DNA of 64,000 nucleotides, from the NCBI GenBank assembly GCA_017477425.1, contig JAFUVT010000014.1, positions 1 to 64,000 on the forward strand, read 5' to 3'. The notes below the pieces were generated by a model. That model saw only the letters and a program-made list of their open reading frames with translations, had not been told where the DNA came from and made no database searches. The position numbers and the translations under genes were made by a program. This document shows positions 4,692 through 27,621 of this stretch, piece by piece. The DNA comes from Bacteroidales bacterium (GTDB lineage: Bacteria; Bacteroidota; Bacteroidia; Bacteroidales; F082). Every line of letters starts with the position of its first letter. Positions within the stretch are counted from its first letter, which is position 1.

Positions 4692-5297
4692 ATGAAAACA
4701 AAATCAATTCTTATGGCAGTTGTGGTGCTTTTGATGGCCACGGGCTGCAACGCACAAAGCAAGCAAGAAGTCAAACCAACAAACAGTAAAGCAATGAGCA
4801 AATCCATCGTTATTTTCTTCTCCCACGCTGGCGACAACTACAGCGTTGGCAACATCGAGGTCGGCAACACCAAGATTGTGGCCGACTACATCAGCGACAT
4901 CATCGGTGCCGACCAGTTTGAGATCGTCACCCACAAGTACGACGGCATGGCCTACACGCCGCTTATCAACCTCGCCAAGGAAGAGGCCAACAACGGCGAG
5001 CTGCCGCCCTACGAAGGCCAGGCTCCCGACCTCAGCCAGTACGACACCGTCTTCATCGGCGGCCCTGTGTGGTGGGGCACCTATCCGCAGGTGATGTTCA
5101 CCCTGTTCAAAGACATCAACCTCGACGGCAAGACCGTCATCCCTTTCACCACCCACGAAGGCAGTGGCTTGGCCAGCTGCGTCAGCGACGTGAAGCGCGC
5201 CTTCCCGAAAGCCAATGTCACGGGCAGCTTCAGCATCGCCGGTCACGACGTGCGCAGCGGTCGCGCCAGAGTGGAAAAATGGCTTAAATCGCTATAA
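4692..5297 (+). CDS. Lipoprotein flavodoxin (flavodoxin_4-like)
   Basis: 201 residues. It begins with a lipoprotein signal (hydrophobic run, then ATGC with the lipid-attached Cys at 19), a ~15-residue linker, then a flavodoxin fold: IVIFFSHAGDNYSVGN as FMN phosphate loop, FIGGPVWWGTYP near 119-130 as the isoalloxazine-contacting loop, and a C-terminal strand/helix pair. Flavodoxins are normally cytoplasmic electron carriers, so an envelope-anchored one is notable; a second occurs at 23467. It is co-transcribed with the SDR and followed by an AraC gene with its own promoter. It probably acts in flavin-dependent reduction at the periplasmic face. The partner is unknown. Confidence 0.85.
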   Translation: MKTKSILMAVVVLLMATGCNAQSKQEVKPTNSKAMSKSIVIFFSHAGDNYSVGNIEVGNTKIVADYISDIIGADQFEIVTHKYDGMAYTPLINLAKEEANNGELPPYEGQAPDLSQYDTVFIGGPVWWGTYPQVMFTLFKDINLDGKTVIPFTTHEGSGLASCVSDVKRAFPKANVTGSFSIAGHDVRSGRARVEKWLKSL

Positions 5298-5341
5298 GCA
5301 ATCGGAAAGCTAACCATCGGTGCAAGAATGGCATTTTTTGC

Positions 5342-5349
5342 TATTTTTG
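5342..5349 (+). promoter_or_regulatory. -7 promoter element of the second AraC gene
   Basis: TATTTTTG, 20 bases before the ATG at 5370. It excludes the upstream in-frame ATG at 5328, which would precede transcription. Confidence 0.6.
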
Positions 5350-5369
5350 CACCAGTTTTTTTCAAGAAA

Positions 5370-6284
5370 ATGATTCACTACGAGACCATACAGCAGTTCA
5401 ATGATATGCTGGGCGTGGAGACCTTGCATCCGATGGTGAGCGTTGTCCACTTGGACGACGCCCGCCAGATGCACCACATGCTGCACACCAACGGCTTCTA
5501 CAGCGTGATGCTGAAGGACGAGAAATTCTGCGACATCATCTACGGACGCTCGCGCTACGACTACGACAAAGGCTCGGTGGTATGCACCGCCCCGATGCAG
5601 GTGGTGGGTATCGCGCCGACCAACAAGGCTCTGGGCGACGAGGCCCAAGAGCTGTTCCAACCCGTCGGCTGGGGATTGTTTTTCGCGCCCGAGCTGATTC
5701 ACGGCACCTCGTTGGCGAGGAACCTGAAGGAATACACATTCTTCGACTATCAGGCGAATGAGGCCCTGCACCTCTCGGAACGCGAGCGCGAGGTCTTCCT
5801 GCATTGCCTTGGCGAAATCCAGACCGAGCTCAACCACGACATCGACCGCCTGACGCGCCGCCTCGTGGTGTCGAACATCGAAATCCTGCTCGATCACCTG
5901 CTGCGTTTCTACGAGCGGCAGTTCATCACCCGCGAGGTCGTCAACTCCGACCTGCTTATGCGTTTCGAGAAGATCTTGTCCCATTATTTCGAGGGCGACA
6001 ATGCCCTGAAAAACGGTCTGCCCACGGTGCGTTATTGCGCCTCCGAACTCTGCCTCTCGCCCAATTATTTCGGCGACCTCATCAAGAAGGAGACGGGCAA
6101 GACCGCGCAAGAGCACATCAAGCTGCACACCCTTGACGCCATCAAACGGGAACTCGCGGACTCGTCGAAAAGCATCGGCGAGGTGGCCTACAGCCTCGGA
6201 TTCCAGTATCAGCAACATCTCAGCCGCTTCTTCAAGAAAGAGACCGGAATGACCCCAGTAGAATATCGGCTGAAGTCGGCTTGA
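5370..6284 (+). CDS. AraC-family transcriptional regulator (second of five)
   Basis: 304 residues. The C-terminal DNA-binding domain is clear: CASELCLSPNYFGDLIKKETG as the first helix-turn-helix, then IGEVAYSLGFQYQQHLSRFFKK and the family ending MTPVEYR. The N-terminal 190 residues resemble AraC sensor domains of Bacteroidetes that lie next to oxidoreductases, with an HxxPELIHGTSL-like cupin remnant. It lies 72 bases after the flavodoxin and has its own -7 element. It may act on the SDR/flavodoxin pair together with the first AraC protein. The effector is unknown. Confidence 0.9.
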   Translation: MIHYETIQQFNDMLGVETLHPMVSVVHLDDARQMHHMLHTNGFYSVMLKDEKFCDIIYGRSRYDYDKGSVVCTAPMQVVGIAPTNKALGDEAQELFQPVGWGLFFAPELIHGTSLARNLKEYTFFDYQANEALHLSEREREVFLHCLGEIQTELNHDIDRLTRRLVVSNIEILLDHLLRFYERQFITREVVNSDLLMRFEKILSHYFEGDNALKNGLPTVRYCASELCLSPNYFGDLIKKETGKTAQEHIKLHTLDAIKRELADSSKSIGEVAYSLGFQYQQHLSRFFKKETGMTPVEYRLKSA

Positions 6285-10405: not shown

Positions 10406-11752
10406 TCAAAGTGTTTTTAATTGTTTTTTGCCATTTTGGATGTAGATACCTTGGAAATTGTCGGGCAAAGTGGTGCCGAGGCAACGACCATCTAAGGTAT
10501 AGATTTTGTCATCCTTGATGGGGGTTTCACTCGTGTTTTCTTCAATTCCCGTTCCATCGTTGATGGTACCCGAACCAGTTAGGTTGGTGTATGTTAGTGT
10601 GTAGCCGTTTTTATTGATTGTGCCATTGTTGACGATGGAGCATACGGAAGTGTTGGCAGTCAAGTTCCAAGTGGCATCGTCGTTAATGGTGACATTGGCT
10701 GTGTACCCCGAGTCGTATTTCACTTGACCGCTGTAAGCACCGTTGGAGAGAACGAGAGTGCCAACGGCGCCGCTGGTACTCCATTGAGAGTCGGCCATGA
10801 CGTACATGAGTATGTTGCTGGGTACGTTGACCGTGCAATTGTCGAGCGTACAAGTGGCCGTGACTGCCGTGGCCACTTCAAGCAACGGGGCGCTTGCATC
10901 GGTCATCGTCAGCGAGGTGCCGGTGATGGTCATCACGGGATTGTAGCCCGAGGCATCGCCGCTGCCGCTCTGCATCATCAGCAAGCCGCGCTCGCTTGAG
11001 CCGCTGCTCATGGTGCAGTTGGTCATGGTGACGCTGTTGTCGCCTTCGATGACAGCAATCTCGCCTTGGGCCGAAGTGCCAGTCAGGTCGGTGGCCGAAA
11101 TGGCACCTGTCGAATAAAGCACGGCGGAACGGTCGCCTTTGGCTGTGGCCGAGCCTCCCGTCACGCTGATGATGCCGCTGCCACGGTCGGTGGCTATCGT
11201 GCTGCTCGTTGCAGATTCGGTAGTGATGTCGACATCGGTGGCAATGATGGTGCCCCCGTATGTGGCATGTAGTCCGCGCGACACGCTGTTGCTGTTGACG
11301 ATAGTGATGCCGTCCGCATAAATGGTGGCCCCATTCGTGGCAAAGACGGCGTTGGCTCCTTGCGAGCTGGAGGTAATCGTGCCCCCTGCGATGTGAATGA
11401 TGGAGTTGGCGCCAGCGGTGGTGCTTTCGTAGTTGGTGCTGCTGGCCGCTCCAGCGTAGATGGTCGAGTTGTTGCCGTAGAAGCTCGAGTTGTCGCCCGA
11501 GGAGCCGTCGCCGGTCTTGGTGTAGGTGCAATTGTTCAAGTAAAGCGTGCCGTTGCTCACCTGAACGGCGTTATAGTACTGCGTCGAGCAGTTGAAAATC
11601 TGGTCGTTGAGTGTGACCGTGGAGCCGTCGCTCAATGTGTAAGTGGCACCTTGTGGATAAGTGGGCGACGTGTCGCCTGGCGGTTGGGCCATCAGGCCGA
11701 TGCTGAAACTAAGGGTCAGCACGAGAATAAGAATGTGTTTGCTCATTTTCAT
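10406..11752 (-). CDS. Secreted Ser/Thr-rich beta-helix surface protein
   Basis: 448 residues. A Sec signal peptide (ending LMAQ, ~22 residues), then about 340 residues extremely rich in S, T, G and N with irregular ~20-residue units (ITIVNSN, VDITTESA, ITGTSLTMTD), the look of a right-handed parallel beta-helix as in pectate-lyase-like adhesins. The last ~37 residues (DDKIYTLDGRCLG, then QGIYIQNGKKQLKTL) form the short C-terminal domain common on exported Bacteroidales proteins. I see no catalytic residues, so a surface or structural role is more likely than a lyase. It is transcribed alone, divergent from the AraC gene at 11898. Confidence 0.78.
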   Translation of the reverse strand: MKMSKHILILVLTLSFSIGLMAQPPGDTSPTYPQGATYTLSDGSTVTLNDQIFNCSTQYYNAVQVSNGTLYLNNCTYTKTGDGSSGDNSSFYGNNSTIYAGAASSTNYESTTAGANSIIHIAGGTITSSSQGANAVFATNGATIYADGITIVNSNSVSRGLHATYGGTIIATDVDITTESATSSTIATDRGSGIISVTGGSATAKGDRSAVLYSTGAISATDLTGTSAQGEIAVIEGDNSVTMTNCTMSSGSSERGLLMMQSGSGDASGYNPVMTITGTSLTMTDASAPLLEVATAVTATCTLDNCTVNVPSNILMYVMADSQWSTSGAVGTLVLSNGAYSGQVKYDSGYTANVTINDDATWNLTANTSVCSIVNNGTINKNGYTLTYTNLTGSGTINDGTGIEENTSETPIKDDKIYTLDGRCLGTTLPDNFQGIYIQNGKKQLKTL

Positions 11753-18797: not shown

Positions 18798-19961
18798 TTA
18801 AAGGCTCGCCATCAAAATCTCCTCGATATCCTTTTCGCTGAGCGGTGCGTAGGCGTGGTCGAGGCCTTCGTTGACGGCGATGTGATGGGCCATCTCGCCG
18901 ATACGGCTGTCGTCAATGCCCACCTCGCGGAGGTGCATCGGGATGCCGATGCTCTCGAAGAACTTGTAGGTCGCGTCGATGGCTTTCTCGGCGATTTCCT
19001 TCTCGGGCAGCGTCGCGTCGATGCCAAACACGTTGATGCCGTATTTCACGAAGCGCGGCAGCGTGTGGTCGTTCAGGATATGCTTCATCCAGCGCGGGGT
19101 GATGATGGCCAGACCTTCGCCGTGGGTGATGTCGTAGTAGGCGCTCAGGGCGTGCTCAATGCCGTGACAGGGCCAGCCCGACGGACTGTTGCCAAGCGAG
19201 AGGATGCGGTTGCAGCCGTAGGTGCAGCAGAGCATCATCTCGGCGCGCGCGGTGTAGTCGGTGGGGTTTTCGATGCACTTGCGCCCGTTCACCATCAGGC
19301 TGCGCAACATCGACTCGCAGAAGCCGTCGTTGAGCAAGGTGGTGTCCTCGGTGAAGTACTGCTCGATGGTGTGGTTCATAGCGTCGGCAATGCCAGCAGC
19401 AGTCTGTTTCTTCGACACGCTGAAGGTATACGTCGGGTCGAGGAACGAAACGCGAGGATAAAGCAGCGGGTCGACATAGCCGATCTTGTCGTTGGTCTCG
19501 GTGCGCGAGATGACGCCACCCGCGTCGTATTCGCTACCCGTGGCCGCCAAAGTGATGATGTCGACGATGGGCAACGCGGCCTTGGCCTTCACCTTGTAGG
19601 AAATCAGGTCCCACGGGTCGCCGTCGTAGCAAGCGCCGGCAGCGATGGCCTTGGAGCAGTCGAGCACCGAGCCGCCACCCACCGAAAGGATGACGTCGAT
19701 GTGGTGTTCCTTGCAAAGGCGCACGCCTTCAAGGACGCTGGGGTCGTACTTGGGATTCGGCTGGATGCCAGGGAGTTCCACGATTTCATAGCCTTTCAGC
19801 AGGTCGAGCACCTTCTGGTAAAGGCCGATTTTCTTGATGCTGCCTCCGCCGTAGGTGAGGAGGACTTTCTTCCCGAAGTCAGCCATGACTTCCGGGAGTT
19901 TCTCGACGACGCCTTCGCCAAAGATGAGGCGCGTCGGGGTCATGTAATTGAAGTTCTGCAT
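18798..19961 (-). CDS. Iron-containing alcohol dehydrogenase (YqhD/BDH type)
   Basis: 387 residues, full length for the family. GGGSVLDCSKAIAAG (about 95-109) is the nucleotide-binding turn; ADAMNHTIEQY and CHGIEHALSAYYDITHGEG hold the Asp and three His that bind the metal. The wording (SGWPCHGIEHALS) is closest to the NADPH-dependent butanol dehydrogenase/YqhD branch, which reduces diverse aldehydes to alcohols. It lies last in the leftward redox island, with its own -7 element at 20008-20015 overlapping the end of the upstream hydrolase. A role in aldehyde detoxification or fermentation is likely. The gene symbol is not certain, so I leave it blank. Confidence 0.93.
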   Translation of the reverse strand: MQNFNYMTPTRLIFGEGVVEKLPEVMADFGKKVLLTYGGGSIKKIGLYQKVLDLLKGYEIVELPGIQPNPKYDPSVLEGVRLCKEHHIDVILSVGGGSVLDCSKAIAAGACYDGDPWDLISYKVKAKAALPIVDIITLAATGSEYDAGGVISRTETNDKIGYVDPLLYPRVSFLDPTYTFSVSKKQTAAGIADAMNHTIEQYFTEDTTLLNDGFCESMLRSLMVNGRKCIENPTDYTARAEMMLCCTYGCNRILSLGNSPSGWPCHGIEHALSAYYDITHGEGLAIITPRWMKHILNDHTLPRFVKYGINVFGIDATLPEKEIAEKAIDATYKFFESIGIPMHLREVGIDDSRIGEMAHHIAVNEGLDHAYAPLSEKDIEEILMASL

Positions 19962-20007: not shown

Positions 20008-20015
20008 CAAAATTA
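20008..20015 (-). promoter_or_regulatory. -7 promoter element of the alcohol dehydrogenase
   Basis: Reads TAATTTTG leftward, 46 bases before the ATG at 19961. It overlaps the last codon and stop of the hydrolase gene, so the dehydrogenase can be expressed separately. Confidence 0.5.
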
Positions 20016-21089
20016 CAATTTCTTTTCCAACCATTCGGCAATCAAGTCGGCAATTTCGGCATTGTTCATCTCTTGGAACATGAAATGGCTGTTGCCCTTG
20101 ATGCCCTTTTCGGGAAGATAGACGACCGTGGCATCGCCGCCGTCGGCATTGTAATGTTCGGCGAAGTCGCGGCATTGGTTGAGCACCATCTGCCAGAAGC
20201 CGGTGGACTGGATGTCCTCAGGACCGTTCTCTATGTAGTCGCCGAAAAGGAACAGCATCGGCACCTTGGCTTCGACGAACTTCTGGTATTCCGGCGAGCC
20301 GACCATCGGAGCGAAGCCAGGCTCCACGGCGACGATGGCCGCCATGTTCTCGGCATCGGTGGCCCAGCCCACACGACCGCCTTGCGAATGGGTGATGTAG
20401 ATGCTCTTGTTGCCCGTCATCTTGCGGACATCCGCCAGCACCGCGCTCAAGGCCTGACCGAAGAGTGGTTCATCGTAGTTGCCGCTGTTGGGTGTCATCT
20501 GGCAGAAGAACTGGTTTTGCGCCTCGTTGCCAGCGGGGAACTGCGAGCCTTCGTAGCGCTCGGGCGCCACGCGGCCGATGCGGAAATGGGTATACCAAGC
20601 CTGCTCCCCGACCTTGTAGTGCGTGCCGTCCACATCGCCCGGGTCGTTGACGATCTCCTCGGTGGCAGCGGCGGCACCACGACGCGGCTGGTCCACCAAA
20701 AACACCGAATAGCCTTTTTTCAGGAAAAGGTCGGCCCAACCCTCGTGACCATCGGGCGTCGATTGCCAGCCCGTGCGGGTCTGTCCGTAGCCGTGCAGGA
20801 AGACCACCGGCAGCCCGTTGCCGCCAGTGGGGATTTGGTAGAACGTGTTGGAGTGATCGACATGGGTTGTCGTGCCCTTACGGGTTGGATCCATCCAGTT
20901 TTGGGTGGGGTCGTATTCGCCTGGGATGGGGTCGGTCACCCGCCCGCCCGACGAGAACACGCCTTGCTTTTCGATGACGAGACATTGCGGCTCGGTGTTT
21001 TGATTCTTGGGTTCAGGTTGATGGTTGCACGCCGTCAGGCTTGCCAGAACAAGCAGCATCGTGGCTGCGAATTTGATTGGTTTATTCAT
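20013..21089 (-). CDS. Alpha/beta hydrolase lipoprotein
   Basis: 358 residues. A lipoprotein signal (LASLTAC, Cys at 21), then an alpha/beta hydrolase: VVFLHGYGQTRTGW for the oxyanion loop, ITHSQGGRVG with the Ser nucleophile near 236, LFLFGDYIE for the acid region and KGNSHFMFQEMNN for the catalytic His near 337. The sequence resembles secreted esterases of the 'alpha/beta fold hydrolase' type often co-located with AraC and aldo/keto reductase genes. The promoter shows the CCG-N7-(TATAA) version of the shared operator box at the standard spacing. The substrate is unknown. Confidence 0.87.
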   Translation of the reverse strand: MNKPIKFAATMLLVLASLTACNHQPEPKNQNTEPQCLVIEKQGVFSSGGRVTDPIPGEYDPTQNWMDPTRKGTTTHVDHSNTFYQIPTGGNGLPVVFLHGYGQTRTGWQSTPDGHEGWADLFLKKGYSVFLVDQPRRGAAAATEEIVNDPGDVDGTHYKVGEQAWYTHFRIGRVAPERYEGSQFPAGNEAQNQFFCQMTPNSGNYDEPLFGQALSAVLADVRKMTGNKSIYITHSQGGRVGWATDAENMAAIVAVEPGFAPMVGSPEYQKFVEAKVPMLFLFGDYIENGPEDIQSTGFWQMVLNQCRDFAEHYNADGGDATVVYLPEKGIKGNSHFMFQEMNNAEIADLIAEWLEKKL

Positions 21090-21196: not shown

Positions 21197-22405
21197 TCAT
21201 TTGAAAACAACCACCTTCTTTACGGTTCCATCGCTCATAAGGATGATGTTGATGCCATTTTGCAAGGTGTTCACCTGCTTGCCATTCACCGTGAAAATCC
21301 GGACAGGTTCGATGTCGGTATTTATATCTTCATTTTCGGTGACGGCAGAGGGGGTGTAAGTGTGCTCATACTCGTAATCAACAAAATTGCCGAAGCCCCA
21401 ATTGCCGTACTGAAGATTGAACGACCTTCCCGCATCGCCCATGTCAATGCCTCTGATGGCTTCCATCTCTTCAGCGGACAGATCGAAGTCGAAAATGCTG
21501 ATGTTTTCGAGGATGTGGGCGGGGTTGGTCGAGCCAGGGACAGGGCAGAGACCTTCCTGTATGTGCCAGCGGAGAATGATCTGATAGACCGTTTTCCCGT
21601 GCGCTTGGGCTATCTGTTGGAGCGTGGGGTTGTTCACATCATTGCGGTTGTGGTTCAGCGGATACCAACATTCCACCTGCATATCGTAATTGTCGGCGTA
21701 AAGGGGTCTGGCGTCCGTTCTTTGGGCAAGCGGGTGACACTCTATCTGCGCGATTTGCGGCTTGATTTCCGCGTTTTGCAGGATATAGTTGAACGCTTCC
21801 ATCCGGTTGTCGAAATTGCTGATGCCGAGTGCCCTGATTCTGCCTGCCTTGTATTCGTCCTCCATCACGCGCCAGCAGGCAAGGATGTCCGTCAAAGTGC
21901 CGGCGGGGTGGTGGATATACACAAGGTCGATATAGTCGACTTGCAGCCTTTCGAGCATACCGTTAAACGCATTCTGCGCGTCGGCCAAATTGCCCGAGAT
22001 TTTGCTCGTCACCCAAATCTCTTCGCGGGGCACGCCGCTTTCCAGGATACCCCATCCCGTTCCGCGTTCGTTGTAGTAGAACATCGCATCGTCCAGATGG
22101 CGGTAGCCCGACTGAAGCGCCGAGATGACCATCCCATTGACGGTTTCGTTAAGTATTTGTCTCTGGTTTGGGCCTTCCAAACTCTGAACCTGGGTGCCAA
22201 GGCCGAAACGAGGCATCATTACGCCATTGTTGAGCCGCACCAGCGGGACACCCGCCACTGATGTGATATTGGATACGGCTTGAGGACCGCCGTCGGGAGT
22301 GTTGCCACCTGGCGCGGGTTGCGTCACTTCGTGGTCAAAATTCTGTGCAAAGGCACTGACACTCAACAGCACCGCTGCCAGCATCGTGAAAAGTCGAGTT
22401 TTCAT
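21197..22405 (-). CDS. Secreted aldo/keto reductase with C-terminal sorting-like tail
   Basis: 402 residues. A Sec signal peptide (residues 1-20, SAFAQ), ~30 residues of linker, then a complete aldo/keto reductase barrel: D105, Y110, K135 and H165 form the catalytic tetrad; IRALGISNFDNR and PVPGSTNP bind cofactor. After residue ~363 comes a C-terminal domain with PVRIFTVNGKQVNTLQNG and ending VKKVVVFK, like short Bacteroidales secretion tails. Aldo/keto reductases use NAD(P)H and are normally cytoplasmic, so export is unusual. The shared operator box precedes it. It may act on periplasmic or surface carbonyls, or use another cofactor. Confidence 0.88.
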   Translation of the reverse strand: MKTRLFTMLAAVLLSVSAFAQNFDHEVTQPAPGGNTPDGGPQAVSNITSVAGVPLVRLNNGVMMPRFGLGTQVQSLEGPNQRQILNETVNGMVISALQSGYRHLDDAMFYYNERGTGWGILESGVPREEIWVTSKISGNLADAQNAFNGMLERLQVDYIDLVYIHHPAGTLTDILACWRVMEDEYKAGRIRALGISNFDNRMEAFNYILQNAEIKPQIAQIECHPLAQRTDARPLYADNYDMQVECWYPLNHNRNDVNNPTLQQIAQAHGKTVYQIILRWHIQEGLCPVPGSTNPAHILENISIFDFDLSAEEMEAIRGIDMGDAGRSFNLQYGNWGFGNFVDYEYEHTYTPSAVTENEDINTDIEPVRIFTVNGKQVNTLQNGINIILMSDGTVKKVVVFK

Positions 22406-22533: not shown

Positions 22534-23340
22534 TTATTTCTCCCGAAACTCCGAAGGATACTTCCCCAAGAGGTTGAAGACATAGCGCGAGAAAAAGGCC
22601 TGTGAGGAGAAGTTGAACTCCTCGGCGATTTGGGCGAGTGTGACCGTCGGGTCCTTCAGCCTGCGCTGGATGTCGATGATGGTGAAGCGGTTGATCCAAT
22701 AATTGGCTGGGAAACCACTGACTTTCTTGCAGATGGATGAAAGGTGCTTCGCCGTCACGCAAAGCAGGTTGGCGTAATGGTTCAAGTCGCGGTGCTCCTT
22801 GTAGGCGCCGCTTTCGAGAAGGCTCATAAAGCCCCTGATCATCGCGGACTGTGTGTCGGAGAAGGTCGTTTCGCCGCCGTCGATGCGGATGTGGAAGTCG
22901 AAATAGTCCAAGAAAAGCGAGCGCAACGCCGAACTCAAGGCCTCTTTATAGAAATGGTGCCCCGTGTCGTTGAAGCGGTATTCCACCATCTTGAAATCGC
23001 TGCGGCACACCTCCTGATGCTTTTCGTCGAGCCACATCACAGGATTGTTGTAGAGCGCCATAATGCCCTTTGTGCCGTAGTTGCTTTCGGGCGACGACTG
23101 CACCAAGAAGGTGTTGTGCACATAGATGACCGTGACCTCGAAATCGTCGGTAGGCTCCACATCGAAAACCAACTTCGTGATGGTGATGATGGCGCAGTCG
23201 CCCGAACGGAGGGCGAAACGCTTCTCGTTGAAGACGAACTCGCAACCGCCGCCTTCGCAGAAGATGTGCGCCACATAATCCGCCACGCGGTCGGAGCCCA
23301 AACTGAACAGGTCTTTTTCTATGATTACTTCTTGCTGCAT
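22534..23340 (-). CDS. AraC-family transcriptional regulator (fifth of five)
   Basis: 268 residues. The N-terminal half is a cupin-type sensor (EKRFALRSGDCAIITITK). The C-terminal AraC domain has ANLLCVTAKHLSSICKKVSG and IAEEFNFSSQAFFSRYVF, with the ending YPSEFREK. An upstream ATG at 23379 overlaps the -7 element (23377-23384), so 23340 is the start. It lies between the decarboxylase-cupin/flavodoxin operon and the secreted aldo/keto reductase, all leftward. It is the best-placed candidate to bind the CCG-N7-GGTAA boxes that flank it. Confidence 0.9.
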   Translation of the reverse strand: MQQEVIIEKDLFSLGSDRVADYVAHIFCEGGGCEFVFNEKRFALRSGDCAIITITKLVFDVEPTDDFEVTVIYVHNTFLVQSSPESNYGTKGIMALYNNPVMWLDEKHQEVCRSDFKMVEYRFNDTGHHFYKEALSSALRSLFLDYFDFHIRIDGGETTFSDTQSAMIRGFMSLLESGAYKEHRDLNHYANLLCVTAKHLSSICKKVSGFPANYWINRFTIIDIQRRLKDPTVTLAQIAEEFNFSSQAFFSRYVFNLLGKYPSEFREK

Positions 23341-23376
23341 CGCGAAGTCAATGGGTAGAAACTTGGTATTTCGATG

Positions 23377-23384
23377 CAAAAATA
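23377..23384 (-). promoter_or_regulatory. -7 promoter element of the fifth AraC gene
   Basis: Reads TATTTTTG leftward, 36 bases before the ATG at 23340. It decides against the start at 23379. Confidence 0.65.
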
Positions 23385-23466: not shown

Positions 23467-24018
23467 TTAGTTCATCAAACGGCTCTCGCCCCAAGTGTAT
23501 TGCGGATAGGCTTTCTTGAGGTCGTTGGCCGAGCCGCTCACGCCGCTGCCGCCACTGGTGGCGAAGACGCACAAGGTCTTGCCGCTCAGGTCGTGGGCTT
23601 CGATGAAGGTGTTGATGATGGTGGGGGCGGTGTACCACCACACGGGGAAGCCGATCCAAACCACGTCGTAGTCGGCGATGTTCTCGCAACGGCCAGCGAT
23701 GGCGGGACGCGAACTCTTGTCGTTCATCTCGAGGGTCGAGCGCGACTGCTTGTCGCGCCAGTCGAGGTCGGCGTCGGTGTAGGGCACTTCGGGTGTGATT
23801 TCGTAAAGGTCGGCGTTCTTTTCTTTCGCCAGGCGTTGTGCGGCGGCCTTGGTGGTTCCCGTGGCCGAGAAGTAAACTACTAATGTCTTCATTTCCTTGT
23901 TCTCCTGTGTTTCTGTTGTTTGTGTTGCTTGTTTGTTTTCTTTCTTGTTGTTTCCTTGCGAGCAGGCCGTCAGGCTGATGCCGAGAATGGCCGCCAAAAT
24001 CATAATGTGTTTCTTCAT
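23467..24018 (-). CDS. Lipoprotein flavodoxin
   Basis: 183 residues. A lipoprotein signal (GISLTAC, Cys at 19), a ~23-residue polar linker rich in N, K, T and Q, then a flavodoxin domain: VVYFSATGTTKAAA as FMN phosphate loop (46-59), VVWIGFPVWWYTAP near 118-131, and CVFATSGGSGVSG near 149-161. It is like the protein at 4692 but shorter at the C-terminus. It follows the decarboxylase-cupin gene by 27 bases in one operon. An anchored flavodoxin next to secreted redox enzymes suggests flavin chemistry on the periplasmic side. Confidence 0.87.
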   Translation of the reverse strand: MKKHIMILAAILGISLTACSQGNNKKENKQATQTTETQENKEMKTLVVYFSATGTTKAAAQRLAKEKNADLYEITPEVPYTDADLDWRDKQSRSTLEMNDKSSRPAIAGRCENIADYDVVWIGFPVWWYTAPTIINTFIEAHDLSGKTLCVFATSGGSGVSGSANDLKKAYPQYTWGESRLMN

Positions 24019-24045: not shown

Positions 24046-25155
24046 TCAAAGTGCTGAATATTCCTCATCCCCAACCGCTTCTATCCATTCCGTGCTGTTG
24101 CCAGGCTGCACATCGGTGTGGTAGGTGAGGTGTTGCATCCAGCTGTCCTTGGCGGCACCGTGCCAATGCTTCACGCCCTCGGGGACGGCGATGACCACGC
24201 CGGGTTTCAGCTCGACGGGTTCCTTGCCCCATTCCTGATACCAGCCACGACCGCTCACGCAAACCAGCATCTGCACCGCACCGTGGTGGATGTGCCAATT
24301 GTTGCGACATCCCGGCTCAAAAGTGACATTGCACAGGCCACTTTGGTCGAGGATGGCGAGGTAGCTGTTGCCAACGAAATATTGCGCAAAGGCCGTATTC
24401 GGCTCGCCGAGCGGCCACACCGACGACGAATAGGCCACATCGGTCTTGCCGTCCACCGCCGTGGCGATGGCGGCACGGGCGCGTTGCGCTTCGGAAAGCA
24501 AGCCCTTGGCTTCGAGGGCATCGGGGATGGCACGAAGCTGGGCTTCGCTTACACCCATATTCAAGGCGCCACGCACGTGTGCCTGCAACTGCGGCATCAC
24601 ATTCTCCAGTCCACTCAGCGCGCTGACGGTGATAAGCTCGCGGTCGGCGAAGGTGAGGTTGTCGCGGGCAAAGATGTCGCCGAAAAGGTGGGCTTTCAGG
24701 TAGTAATCCTCGGCGGGACAGAAGGCGTAATCGAAGACGCGACCGCTCACCTGGGTCTGCACTTCGGTGCCTTGCTTCAAGGCGTCATAATCGCTCGGCA
24801 AGGGTGAAGCGTCCTCGCCTTCAAGGGTGGTTTTGCCTTCGTTTTTGCGCTGTTCCAACACCTTTTGCAAGGTGCCCAAAGCATTCAGTGAGCGCGGAAA
24901 ACCTGTGTAAGCGTAGAGTTGCGAAAGGGCTTCCTTCACTTGGCTGACGGTCAGGCCGGCATCCAGTCCTTCGTTGAGGGCTTGGCTCAAGGCCGCATAG
25001 TCGGCTTTGGCCTCGTTGCAGGCGATGGCCGACATACAGACTGCCTGCTCATTGTTGAAACTCAATGTATTCATCTCTTTTTTCGTTTCCGTTTTGCTGC
25101 CGCAAGAAGCCATCATTACGACTGTCGCGGCGAGAACCAAAGTCTTTTTATTCAT
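24046..25155 (-). CDS. Lipoprotein fusion of carboxymuconolactone decarboxylase-like and cupin domains
   Basis: 369 residues. A lipoprotein signal (MMASC, Cys at 18). Residues ~30-105 and ~145-225 are two CMD/AhpD-like helical domains (LTVSQVKEALSQLYAYTGFP; ELITVSALSGLENVMPQLQAHV). Residues ~255-360 form a cupin with WHIHHGAVQMLVCVSGRGWY and KPGVVIAVPEGVKHWHG, so the metal-binding His/Glu set is largely present. The usual CMD domain CxxC pair is absent, so AhpD-type peroxidase activity is unlikely. It is the first gene of an operon with the flavodoxin, behind a CCG-N7-GGTAA box. It may bind or convert small lactones, quinones or electrophiles. Confidence 0.88.
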   Translation of the reverse strand: MNKKTLVLAATVVMMASCGSKTETKKEMNTLSFNNEQAVCMSAIACNEAKADYAALSQALNEGLDAGLTVSQVKEALSQLYAYTGFPRSLNALGTLQKVLEQRKNEGKTTLEGEDASPLPSDYDALKQGTEVQTQVSGRVFDYAFCPAEDYYLKAHLFGDIFARDNLTFADRELITVSALSGLENVMPQLQAHVRGALNMGVSEAQLRAIPDALEAKGLLSEAQRARAAIATAVDGKTDVAYSSSVWPLGEPNTAFAQYFVGNSYLAILDQSGLCNVTFEPGCRNNWHIHHGAVQMLVCVSGRGWYQEWGKEPVELKPGVVIAVPEGVKHWHGAAKDSWMQHLTYHTDVQPGNSTEWIEAVGDEEYSAL

Positions 25156-26694: not shown

Positions 26695-27540
26695 TTATCC
26701 GTAAGTCTCAATCAGATACTTCACAAACTGCGGGTCGGTGAAATTGATGGTGCCCGTGTCGTGTTGGTTCATCGTCGCGATTTGGGCCATATCCTCATCG
26801 GTGAGCGTGAAATCGAAGATGTTGAAATTCTGCTCCATACGCTCCTTGTGGCTGCTCTTTGGGATGGCCACGATGCCGCGTTGCGTGAGCCAACGGAGAG
26901 CCACTTGCGATGCGGTCTTGCCGTATTTGGCCCCGATGCCACCCAGCAGTTCGCTCTTGATGATGCCATCCACGCCCTGACCGCCGAGCGGACCCCAAGC
27001 CATCATCTTGGTGCCGAAAGCGGCCAGCTCGGGCTCGATGCCTTGTTGCTGGATCATAGCGTTGCATTGCAGCTGGTTGACCATAGGCTTCACCTCGACA
27101 TAATGGGCGAAGTCGAAGAAACGGGCGGCTTGGAAGTTGCTCACGCCGATGGCGCGCACCTTGCCGTCGCGATAGGCCTTTTCCATCGCGCGCCACGAGC
27201 CGAACACGTCGCCGTAGGCCTGATGGATGAGCAGCAGGTCGATGTAATCCGTTTTCAGCTTGCGCAGGCTCTCGTCGATGCTTTTGGCGGCCTTTTCTTC
27301 GCCCGCATTGCTGACCCATACCTTGGTGACGAGGAACAGCTCCTCGCGCTTGATGCCCGACTTGGCGATGGCCTCCCCTACCCCTTCCTCGTTGAAATAA
27401 GCCTGGGCCGTGTCGATGAGACGATAACCCACTGAAAGCGCGTCGCTTACGCAACGCTCCGCCTCTTGCGGCGGCACTTGGAACACTCCGTAACCTAAAA
27501 CCGGCATTTCGATGCCGTTTGACAATTTGATGTTTTGCAT
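26695..27540 (-). CDS. Cytoplasmic aldo/keto reductase (DkgA-like)
   Basis: 281 residues, no signal peptide. The tetrad is D43, Y48, K73 and H106, with LIDTAQAYFNEEGVG and LLLIHQAYGD around it, IGVSNFQAARF near 144, and the cofactor-binding IPKSSHKER near 239. This is the 2,5-diketo-gluconate/methylglyoxal reductase type of the superfamily, which uses NADPH to reduce small dicarbonyls and aldehydes. ATG 27540 is chosen because the longer start (27579) lies inside the -7 element. The shared operator box sits upstream at the standard 22-base spacing. With the YqhD-type dehydrogenase at 18798 it mirrors the E. coli yqhD-dkgA pair. Confidence 0.92.
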   Translation of the reverse strand: MQNIKLSNGIEMPVLGYGVFQVPPQEAERCVSDALSVGYRLIDTAQAYFNEEGVGEAIAKSGIKREELFLVTKVWVSNAGEEKAAKSIDESLRKLKTDYIDLLLIHQAYGDVFGSWRAMEKAYRDGKVRAIGVSNFQAARFFDFAHYVEVKPMVNQLQCNAMIQQQGIEPELAAFGTKMMAWGPLGGQGVDGIIKSELLGGIGAKYGKTASQVALRWLTQRGIVAIPKSSHKERMEQNFNIFDFTLTDEDMAQIATMNQHDTGTINFTDPQFVKYLIETYG

Positions 27541-27576
27541 AATATTCGATTTTAACGATTTACAAATTTGATGATG

Positions 27577-27621
27577 CAAAACTACAACTATTTTTCTTTG
27601 CGATGCTTACCTTTTTTACGG
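27577..27621 (-). promoter_or_regulatory. Promoter and operator box of the DkgA-like gene
   Basis: Read leftward: AATCCG with CCG at 27619-27621, seven bases, GGTAA at 27607-27611, 22 bases, then TAGTTTTG at 27577-27584. Confidence 0.65.

Follow-up and report, generated by a model that had tools for sequence, protein, structure and literature searches.

The gene at positions 21197..22405 (minus strand) of the window, by which we mean the whole 64,000-nucleotide stretch of DNA that was analysed, encodes an exported aldo/keto reductase (AKR) of 402 aa, defined from its open reading frame with an ATG start and from Pfam. Export signals, intact catalytic residues, a changed cofactor pocket, purifying selection and, among relatives, fusions to flavodoxins are all read directly from the sequences. 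The gene product is most likely a catalytically competent AKR functioning outside the cytoplasm, its activity being predicted from these features. Our preferred reading, to which we give a probability of about 0.4, is that it would be an active extracytoplasmic reductase working on NAD(H) and coupled to an exported flavodoxin; activity, cofactor, electron flow, substrate and surface location are in this reading what we infer.

The N-terminus, MKTRLFTMLAAVLLSVSAFA followed by Q, is a Sec signal peptide according to our own rule and to reading by eye (residues 1-20, 22346..22405, minus), and it is conserved in relatives. An earlier note on this DNA had proposed this peptide ahead of the AKR, together with a complete catalytic tetrad, and had pointed to a start codon that removes the peptide as what would speak against export. 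Both features are borne out, the former by the N-terminal sequence and by the export signals of the relatives described below, and no such start codon precedes the AKR domain: as the stop-to-stop frame is only 404 aa long, the ATG at 22405 is about the earliest possible start, and alternative starts dropping the signal peptide would fall within the domain. The signal peptide is followed by a conserved linker (NFDHEVTQPAPGG..DGGPQAVSNIT; residues 21-54, 22244..22345, minus), delimited by alignment and modelled with partly low confidence. The (beta/alpha)8 domain itself (residues 55-325, 21431..22243, minus) is supported by Pfam, where PF00248 matches residues 80-320 (E 2.5e-38, 132 bits vs a cut-off of 24), by a structural model and by Foldseek, which retrieves solely AKR structures among the best 50 matches listed. 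The model, built from a 21-sequence alignment, has a mean pLDDT of 82.9; most of the barrel exceeds 90, and residues 367-400 form a small tail of three strands. The tetrad D105, Y110, K135 and H165 (stretch 21911..22093, minus) is intact and invariant across the same alignment, and the dN/dS of the AKR domain is 0.013-0.094 in the unsaturated pairs, which indicates strong purifying selection.

Relatives were searched in one genome per species, over 84,980 species. This yielded 15 AKRs of 60-88% identity, found in several families of Bacteroidota (from Geofilum to Segatella maculosa), in a record titled Roseburia and in a Butyrivibrio, with the reservation that titles of metagenome-assembled records may be misassigned. 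An export signal is present at the start of 15/15 (by our own rule and by eye, of Sec type in nine and of lipoprotein type in six), including two relatives that are defective beyond the signal, L046 by a broken frame and L055 by ending at a contig edge. In L046 (6001-7257), the frame of the exported AKR is broken directly after the signal peptide. As to the combination of signal peptide, AKR and tail, which the earlier note suggested looking for in other genomes, six of these exported relatives have a T9SS-like tail (L042, L043, L045, L049, L050, L053). A dockerin tail is found in L044 (PF00404, E 5.5e-8) and, by the same sequence, in L047, and there is no C-terminal addition in L048, L051, L052, L054 and L056. 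Two lipoproteins have further domains at the N-terminus, L048 fn3/DUF4959 and L051 an InlB-type repeat. That one conserved enzyme should be equipped with several export devices is difficult to account for unless it works outside, and the sequences strongly support export as a family property of these AKRs and no accident of the window gene. A search of plasmids turned up 1115 matching records; in each of them, less than 80% of the protein is covered at any single place, and identity stays below 60%.

The short C-terminal tail of the window AKR (residues about 358-402, 21200..21334, minus), recognized from profiles and from the model, has T9SS-like beta strands. The earlier description of this tail as sorting-like is thus reasonable as to likeness, whereas its role in sorting is not proven. 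On the one hand, the genome has a T9SS, with GldM and SprA found and 142 matches to TIGR04183, the curated model of T9SS type A tails, at E <= 1, most of them above the cut-off; scored with a profile built from 30 T9SS tails of the same genome, the window tail obtains 6.6 bits, a score reached by 4/296 reported shuffles, and the six other AKR tails obtain between 0.9 and 7.2 bits, a level reached by 0 to 29 shuffles. A profile made from all seven AKR tails has 8 non-self matches in the genome at E <= 10, and 4 of the 8 lie on TIGR04183 tails, in the same strand. On the other hand, the curated models TIGR04183 and PF18962 do not match the AKR tail at E <= 1, and give no support to a standard T9SS domain. 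Judging from these comparisons, the tail, which is short, seems to be related to the C-terminal half of the T9SS sorting domain, and is a candidate signal. The one clear non-self match of the seven-tail profile is a protein of the window (10406-11752, minus; 448 aa) with a signal peptide and no Pfam match, which ends in the same type of short tail (E 4.5e-5).

AKRs normally grip the 2'-phosphate of NADPH by a Lys/Arg pair. This NADPH-type pair is absent at the 2'-phosphate site of the window AKR: in the cofactor loop VPGSTNPAHILEN (residues 289-301, 21503..21541, minus), delimited by alignment and by a PDB match, the Lys and the Arg are replaced by G291 and H297. A cytosolic AKR paralogue of the same window (26695..27579, minus; Pfam, alignment) has the normal Lys/Arg pocket, its loop reading IPKS....R, and serves as an internal control. 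Among PDB entries, the pocket segment is matched best by 1M9H, a mutant reportedly made to accept or use NADH. Its title gives F22Y, K232G and a replaced Arg238. According to a passage of PMC4580623, 1M9H carries K232G and R238H. The window AKR retains Ser196, Asn197, Gln220 and Trp247, as well as Glu300/Asn301. From AKR structures, we take the first four, with Trp247 as the stacking aromatic, to be the nicotinamide side of the site and the last two to be its adenine side. The loss of the pair makes NADPH improbable as the preferred cofactor, and NADH-type binding or a non-diffusible source appears more likely than NADPH, judging from the pocket sequence. The earlier note had stressed that an exported NAD(P)H-dependent enzyme implies either a different cofactor or a non-enzymatic role; the puzzle is real and the NADPH clamp is lost, but the second branch is disfavoured by the invariant tetrad and by a dN/dS of 0.01-0.09.

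The relation between pocket and export was surveyed in 295 genomes of the order Bacteroidales, using a mixed AKR profile at E <= 1e-50. A match was found in 79 genomes, for a total of 102 matches including two of the window genome. The 100 others were taken with their flanks; L115 (stop) and L147 (interrupted signal) were set aside and two weaker AKRs of the flanks were added, giving 100 rows. In L147, an AKR that follows a lipoprotein signal (about 4890-5786) is interrupted by an in-frame TGA. AKRs with the Lys/Arg pair are exported in 0/74 rows, vs 14/26 for AKRs without it. The Lys/Arg rows were classed by our rule, their extensions before the domain being at most 25 residues, and six of the rows without the pair (L090, L122, L125, L136, L142, L170) were missed by this rule and read as exported by eye.

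On a tree built from 123 AKR domains of the survey and the relatives (5 of the 128 profile matches being left off, namely L046, L055, L115, L147 and the fragment L045 12820-13152), the exported forms make up two clades, with 2 label changes vs a mean of 29 after shuffling. The first clade comprises 26 rows with Sec or lipoprotein signals, including the window AKR, and is present in 6/294 other survey genomes in addition to the window genome. The second, present in 7 survey genomes, comprises 7 rows with R/H pockets; six of them (L122, L123, L124, L125, L129 and L130, at about 4800-6000 in each) have Tat-like RRxF signals, and L121 is a lipoprotein. None of the 33 exported AKRs on the tree keeps Lys/Arg, and all tetrad residues are retained in the exported rows. 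As the pocket change accompanied export just twice on the tree, the origins are too few for a statistical test.

In Clostridia, 17/245 genomes have an AKR match, with 25 matches. Eight of these AKRs, each with Gly/His, are exported (L196, L197, L198, L200, L203, L204, L205, L208), and none of the 6 Lys/Arg rows is exported, L209 and L218 belonging to one genome. Six further rows lie outside this classing of pocket and export (two in L194, two in L195, L206 6132-7001 and L210). The rule that Gly/His means exported holds in the Bacteroidales survey but fails here, given six Gly/His AKRs without an export signal (L199, L201, L202, L206 5249-6100, L207, L211), so that the pocket change is by itself no marker of export. 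Two exported clostridial AKRs (L208 1198-2760 and L204 3974-5578) have an N-terminal Cyclophil_like2 (PF18050) domain, and in L204 an exported protein made of Cu_amine_oxidN1 and flavodoxin overlaps the AKR.

In the window, a lipoprotein flavodoxin (Flavodoxin_4 by Pfam; 23467..24018, minus, the same strand as the AKR) is located one gene away from the AKR, an AraC-type regulator lying between them (22534..23379, minus; Pfam). A flavodoxin is adjacent to the AKR at L049, L050, L007 and L008, and near it at other relatives. Around the Sec/lipoprotein clade, flavodoxins are within 5 kb of 14/26 AKRs vs 16/90 (p 0.0006), a value inflated by the fact that most rows were picked as relatives of the window AKR. 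In the unbiased survey, flavodoxins within 5 kb are not enriched at exported AKRs (3/14 vs 14/86 for the others; Fisher p 0.70), none is nearby in the Tat clade (0/7), and exported flavodoxins also adjoin cytosolic AKRs. Neighbourhood as proof of coupling is rejected for lack of enrichment in that survey.

Stronger evidence for the flavodoxin link than these counts is provided by fusions, in which flavodoxin and AKR form a single exported lipoprotein: L053, L136/L142 (another subclade, one genome) and L197 (Clostridia), that is, at least three places and two phyla. Both Pfam domains are confirmed in L053, L136 and L197. When the L053 fusion is modelled, its two domains are separated by a linker of low confidence (191-229), and a pTM of 0.47 leaves the model silent on contact between them. 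Exported flavodoxins are also fused to a BD-FAE/Abhydrolase_3 esterase-like alpha/beta hydrolase (L217 695-2335; L202 7371-8744), the kind of gene found beside the window AKR. In one of the lipoprotein flavodoxins (L045 9415-10206), the first strand is followed by an inserted DGVDATTGAT that resembles a site flavinylated by ApbE. The window genome has one ApbE. The flavodoxin at L052 2966-3640 has a degenerate form of this insertion. The motif is absent in both window flavodoxins, at 23467-24018 and at 4692-5297 (plus strand; a second lipoprotein flavodoxin by Pfam). The latter keeps a Met directly before the flavodoxin domain, as many exported flavodoxins do, which is perhaps an old or second start.

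Other genes around the window AKR encode a lipoprotein alpha/beta hydrolase downstream (20013..21089, minus; Pfam), which has relatives of 80-82% identity at two AKR loci, a lipoprotein with CMD and cupin domains (24046..25155, minus; Pfam, curated models) and a cytosolic iron-containing alcohol dehydrogenase (18798..19961, minus; Pfam, curated models). One guess at the substrate is plant-derived carbonyls, as hinted by the esterase-like, CMD and cupin lipoproteins and by the origin of several relatives from herbivore guts.

According to our preferred reading, the AKR would be exported by Sec, and its tail may take it across the outer membrane by the T9SS. It would then bind NAD(H), held or scavenged outside, NAD(H) being the most likely cofactor because the NADPH phosphate clamp is gone, and would reduce (or oxidise) carbonyl compounds outside the cytoplasm. 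Its reducing power would most likely come from the exported FMN flavodoxin encoded by a neighbouring gene; in some relatives, flavodoxin and AKR are one polypeptide.

Several other explanations have been weighed against this one. The exported AKR could scavenge NAD(P)H from lysed cells or from host or food cells, the flavodoxin being uninvolved. The intact tetrad, the retained adenine-side Glu/Asn and the lack of flavodoxin enrichment near exported AKRs in the survey are all consistent with scavenging, which we nevertheless hold to be unlikely in view of the repeated fusions of flavodoxin and AKR in single exported lipoproteins. Somewhat less probable still is an enzyme with a captive cofactor, in the manner of periplasmic glucose-fructose oxidoreductase, where the dinucleotide stays bound while one substrate is oxidised and another reduced. 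Tat signals export folded, cofactor-loaded proteins, and the RRxF signals of the separate exported clade (L122-L125, L129, L130) would suit such an enzyme; the window clade, however, uses Sec, so that its protein passes in an unfolded state and has to acquire the cofactor outside. Electrons could also be received directly from FMN, nicotinamide being absent. Although the fusions to Flavodoxin_4 and the lost phosphate clamp would agree with a direct transfer, we regard it as improbable, since the retention of Ser196, Asn197, Gln220, Trp247 and Glu300/Asn301 suggests a dinucleotide.

The two remaining explanations do away with extracytoplasmic catalysis, and we give each of them very little credence. 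The dockerin and repeat domains of relatives are what could be expected of a non-enzymatic surface protein (an adhesin or binding protein) using the AKR fold as a scaffold, a role to which the invariant tetrad and the dN/dS of 0.01-0.09 are opposed. A spurious signal peptide on a cytoplasmic enzyme would conform to the norm of the AKR family and to the cytosolic neighbour at 26695-27579. It is rejected on account of the export signals, of different types, in all 15 relatives, and the N-terminal extension of about 55 residues, with no start dropping the signal before the domain, also argues against it.

The preferred reading, an NAD(H)-dependent reductase coupled to an exported flavodoxin, could be part of a wider, cross-phylum extracytoplasmic redox module, a proposal that we make tentatively and hold as possible rather than probable. 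AKRs would run on flavin electrons from exported flavodoxins, often within one fused lipoprotein, the nicotinamide being kept captive, recycled while on the enzyme or not needed at all, and they would be displayed by whichever export device the host has (T9SS-like tail, dockerin or lipid anchor). The usual view of AKRs is that of NADPH-dependent enzymes of the cytosol. In the conserved exported clade, with its altered cofactor pocket and its fusions to flavodoxin, it can be tested directly whether a nicotinamide-type reductase works outside the cytoplasm, and where its electrons come from. A positive answer would mean that Bacteroidota and Clostridia of the gut and rumen reduce sugars, aldehydes or plant phenolics at the cell surface in a way not yet described. 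Searches of open-licence PMC papers gave no account of an exported AKR, which does not imply absence in print, and the word 'aldo' is absent from the main text of two flavinylation papers (PMC11334425, PMC8238504).

Among known systems, the extracytosolic Flavodoxin_4 proteins that are flavinylated by ApbE, as described in PMC11334425, resemble ours by the exported Flavodoxin_4, by the L045 insertion and by the presence of ApbE in the window genome, and differ from the window flavodoxins, which are without the motif. Closest to the window AKR, with the same fold and tetrad, are the 2,5-diketo-D-gluconate reductases (DkgA, 1MZR; DKGR A, 1A80/1HW6) and the YvgN-type AKRs, with a sequence match to YvgN at E 3.7e-55 and, among the Foldseek matches listed, TM scores (target) of 0.86-0.93 to 4q3m, 1mzr and 3d3f. 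Unlike them, it is exported and has Gly/His instead of Lys/Arg in the pocket, and it stays below the cut-off of the DkgA 2,5-didehydrogluconate reductase equivalog (NF008598; 184 bits vs 425). It shares with 1M9H, an engineered form of DKGR A, the Gly and the His at the two 2'-phosphate-binding positions, but that enzyme is engineered and cytosolic, whereas the changes of the window AKR are natural. Glucose-fructose oxidoreductase is periplasmic, depends on nicotinamide, has another fold and is exported by Tat; the window AKR is comparable to it as a nicotinamide-type enzyme outside the cytoplasm, and differs from it in being an AKR exported by Sec.
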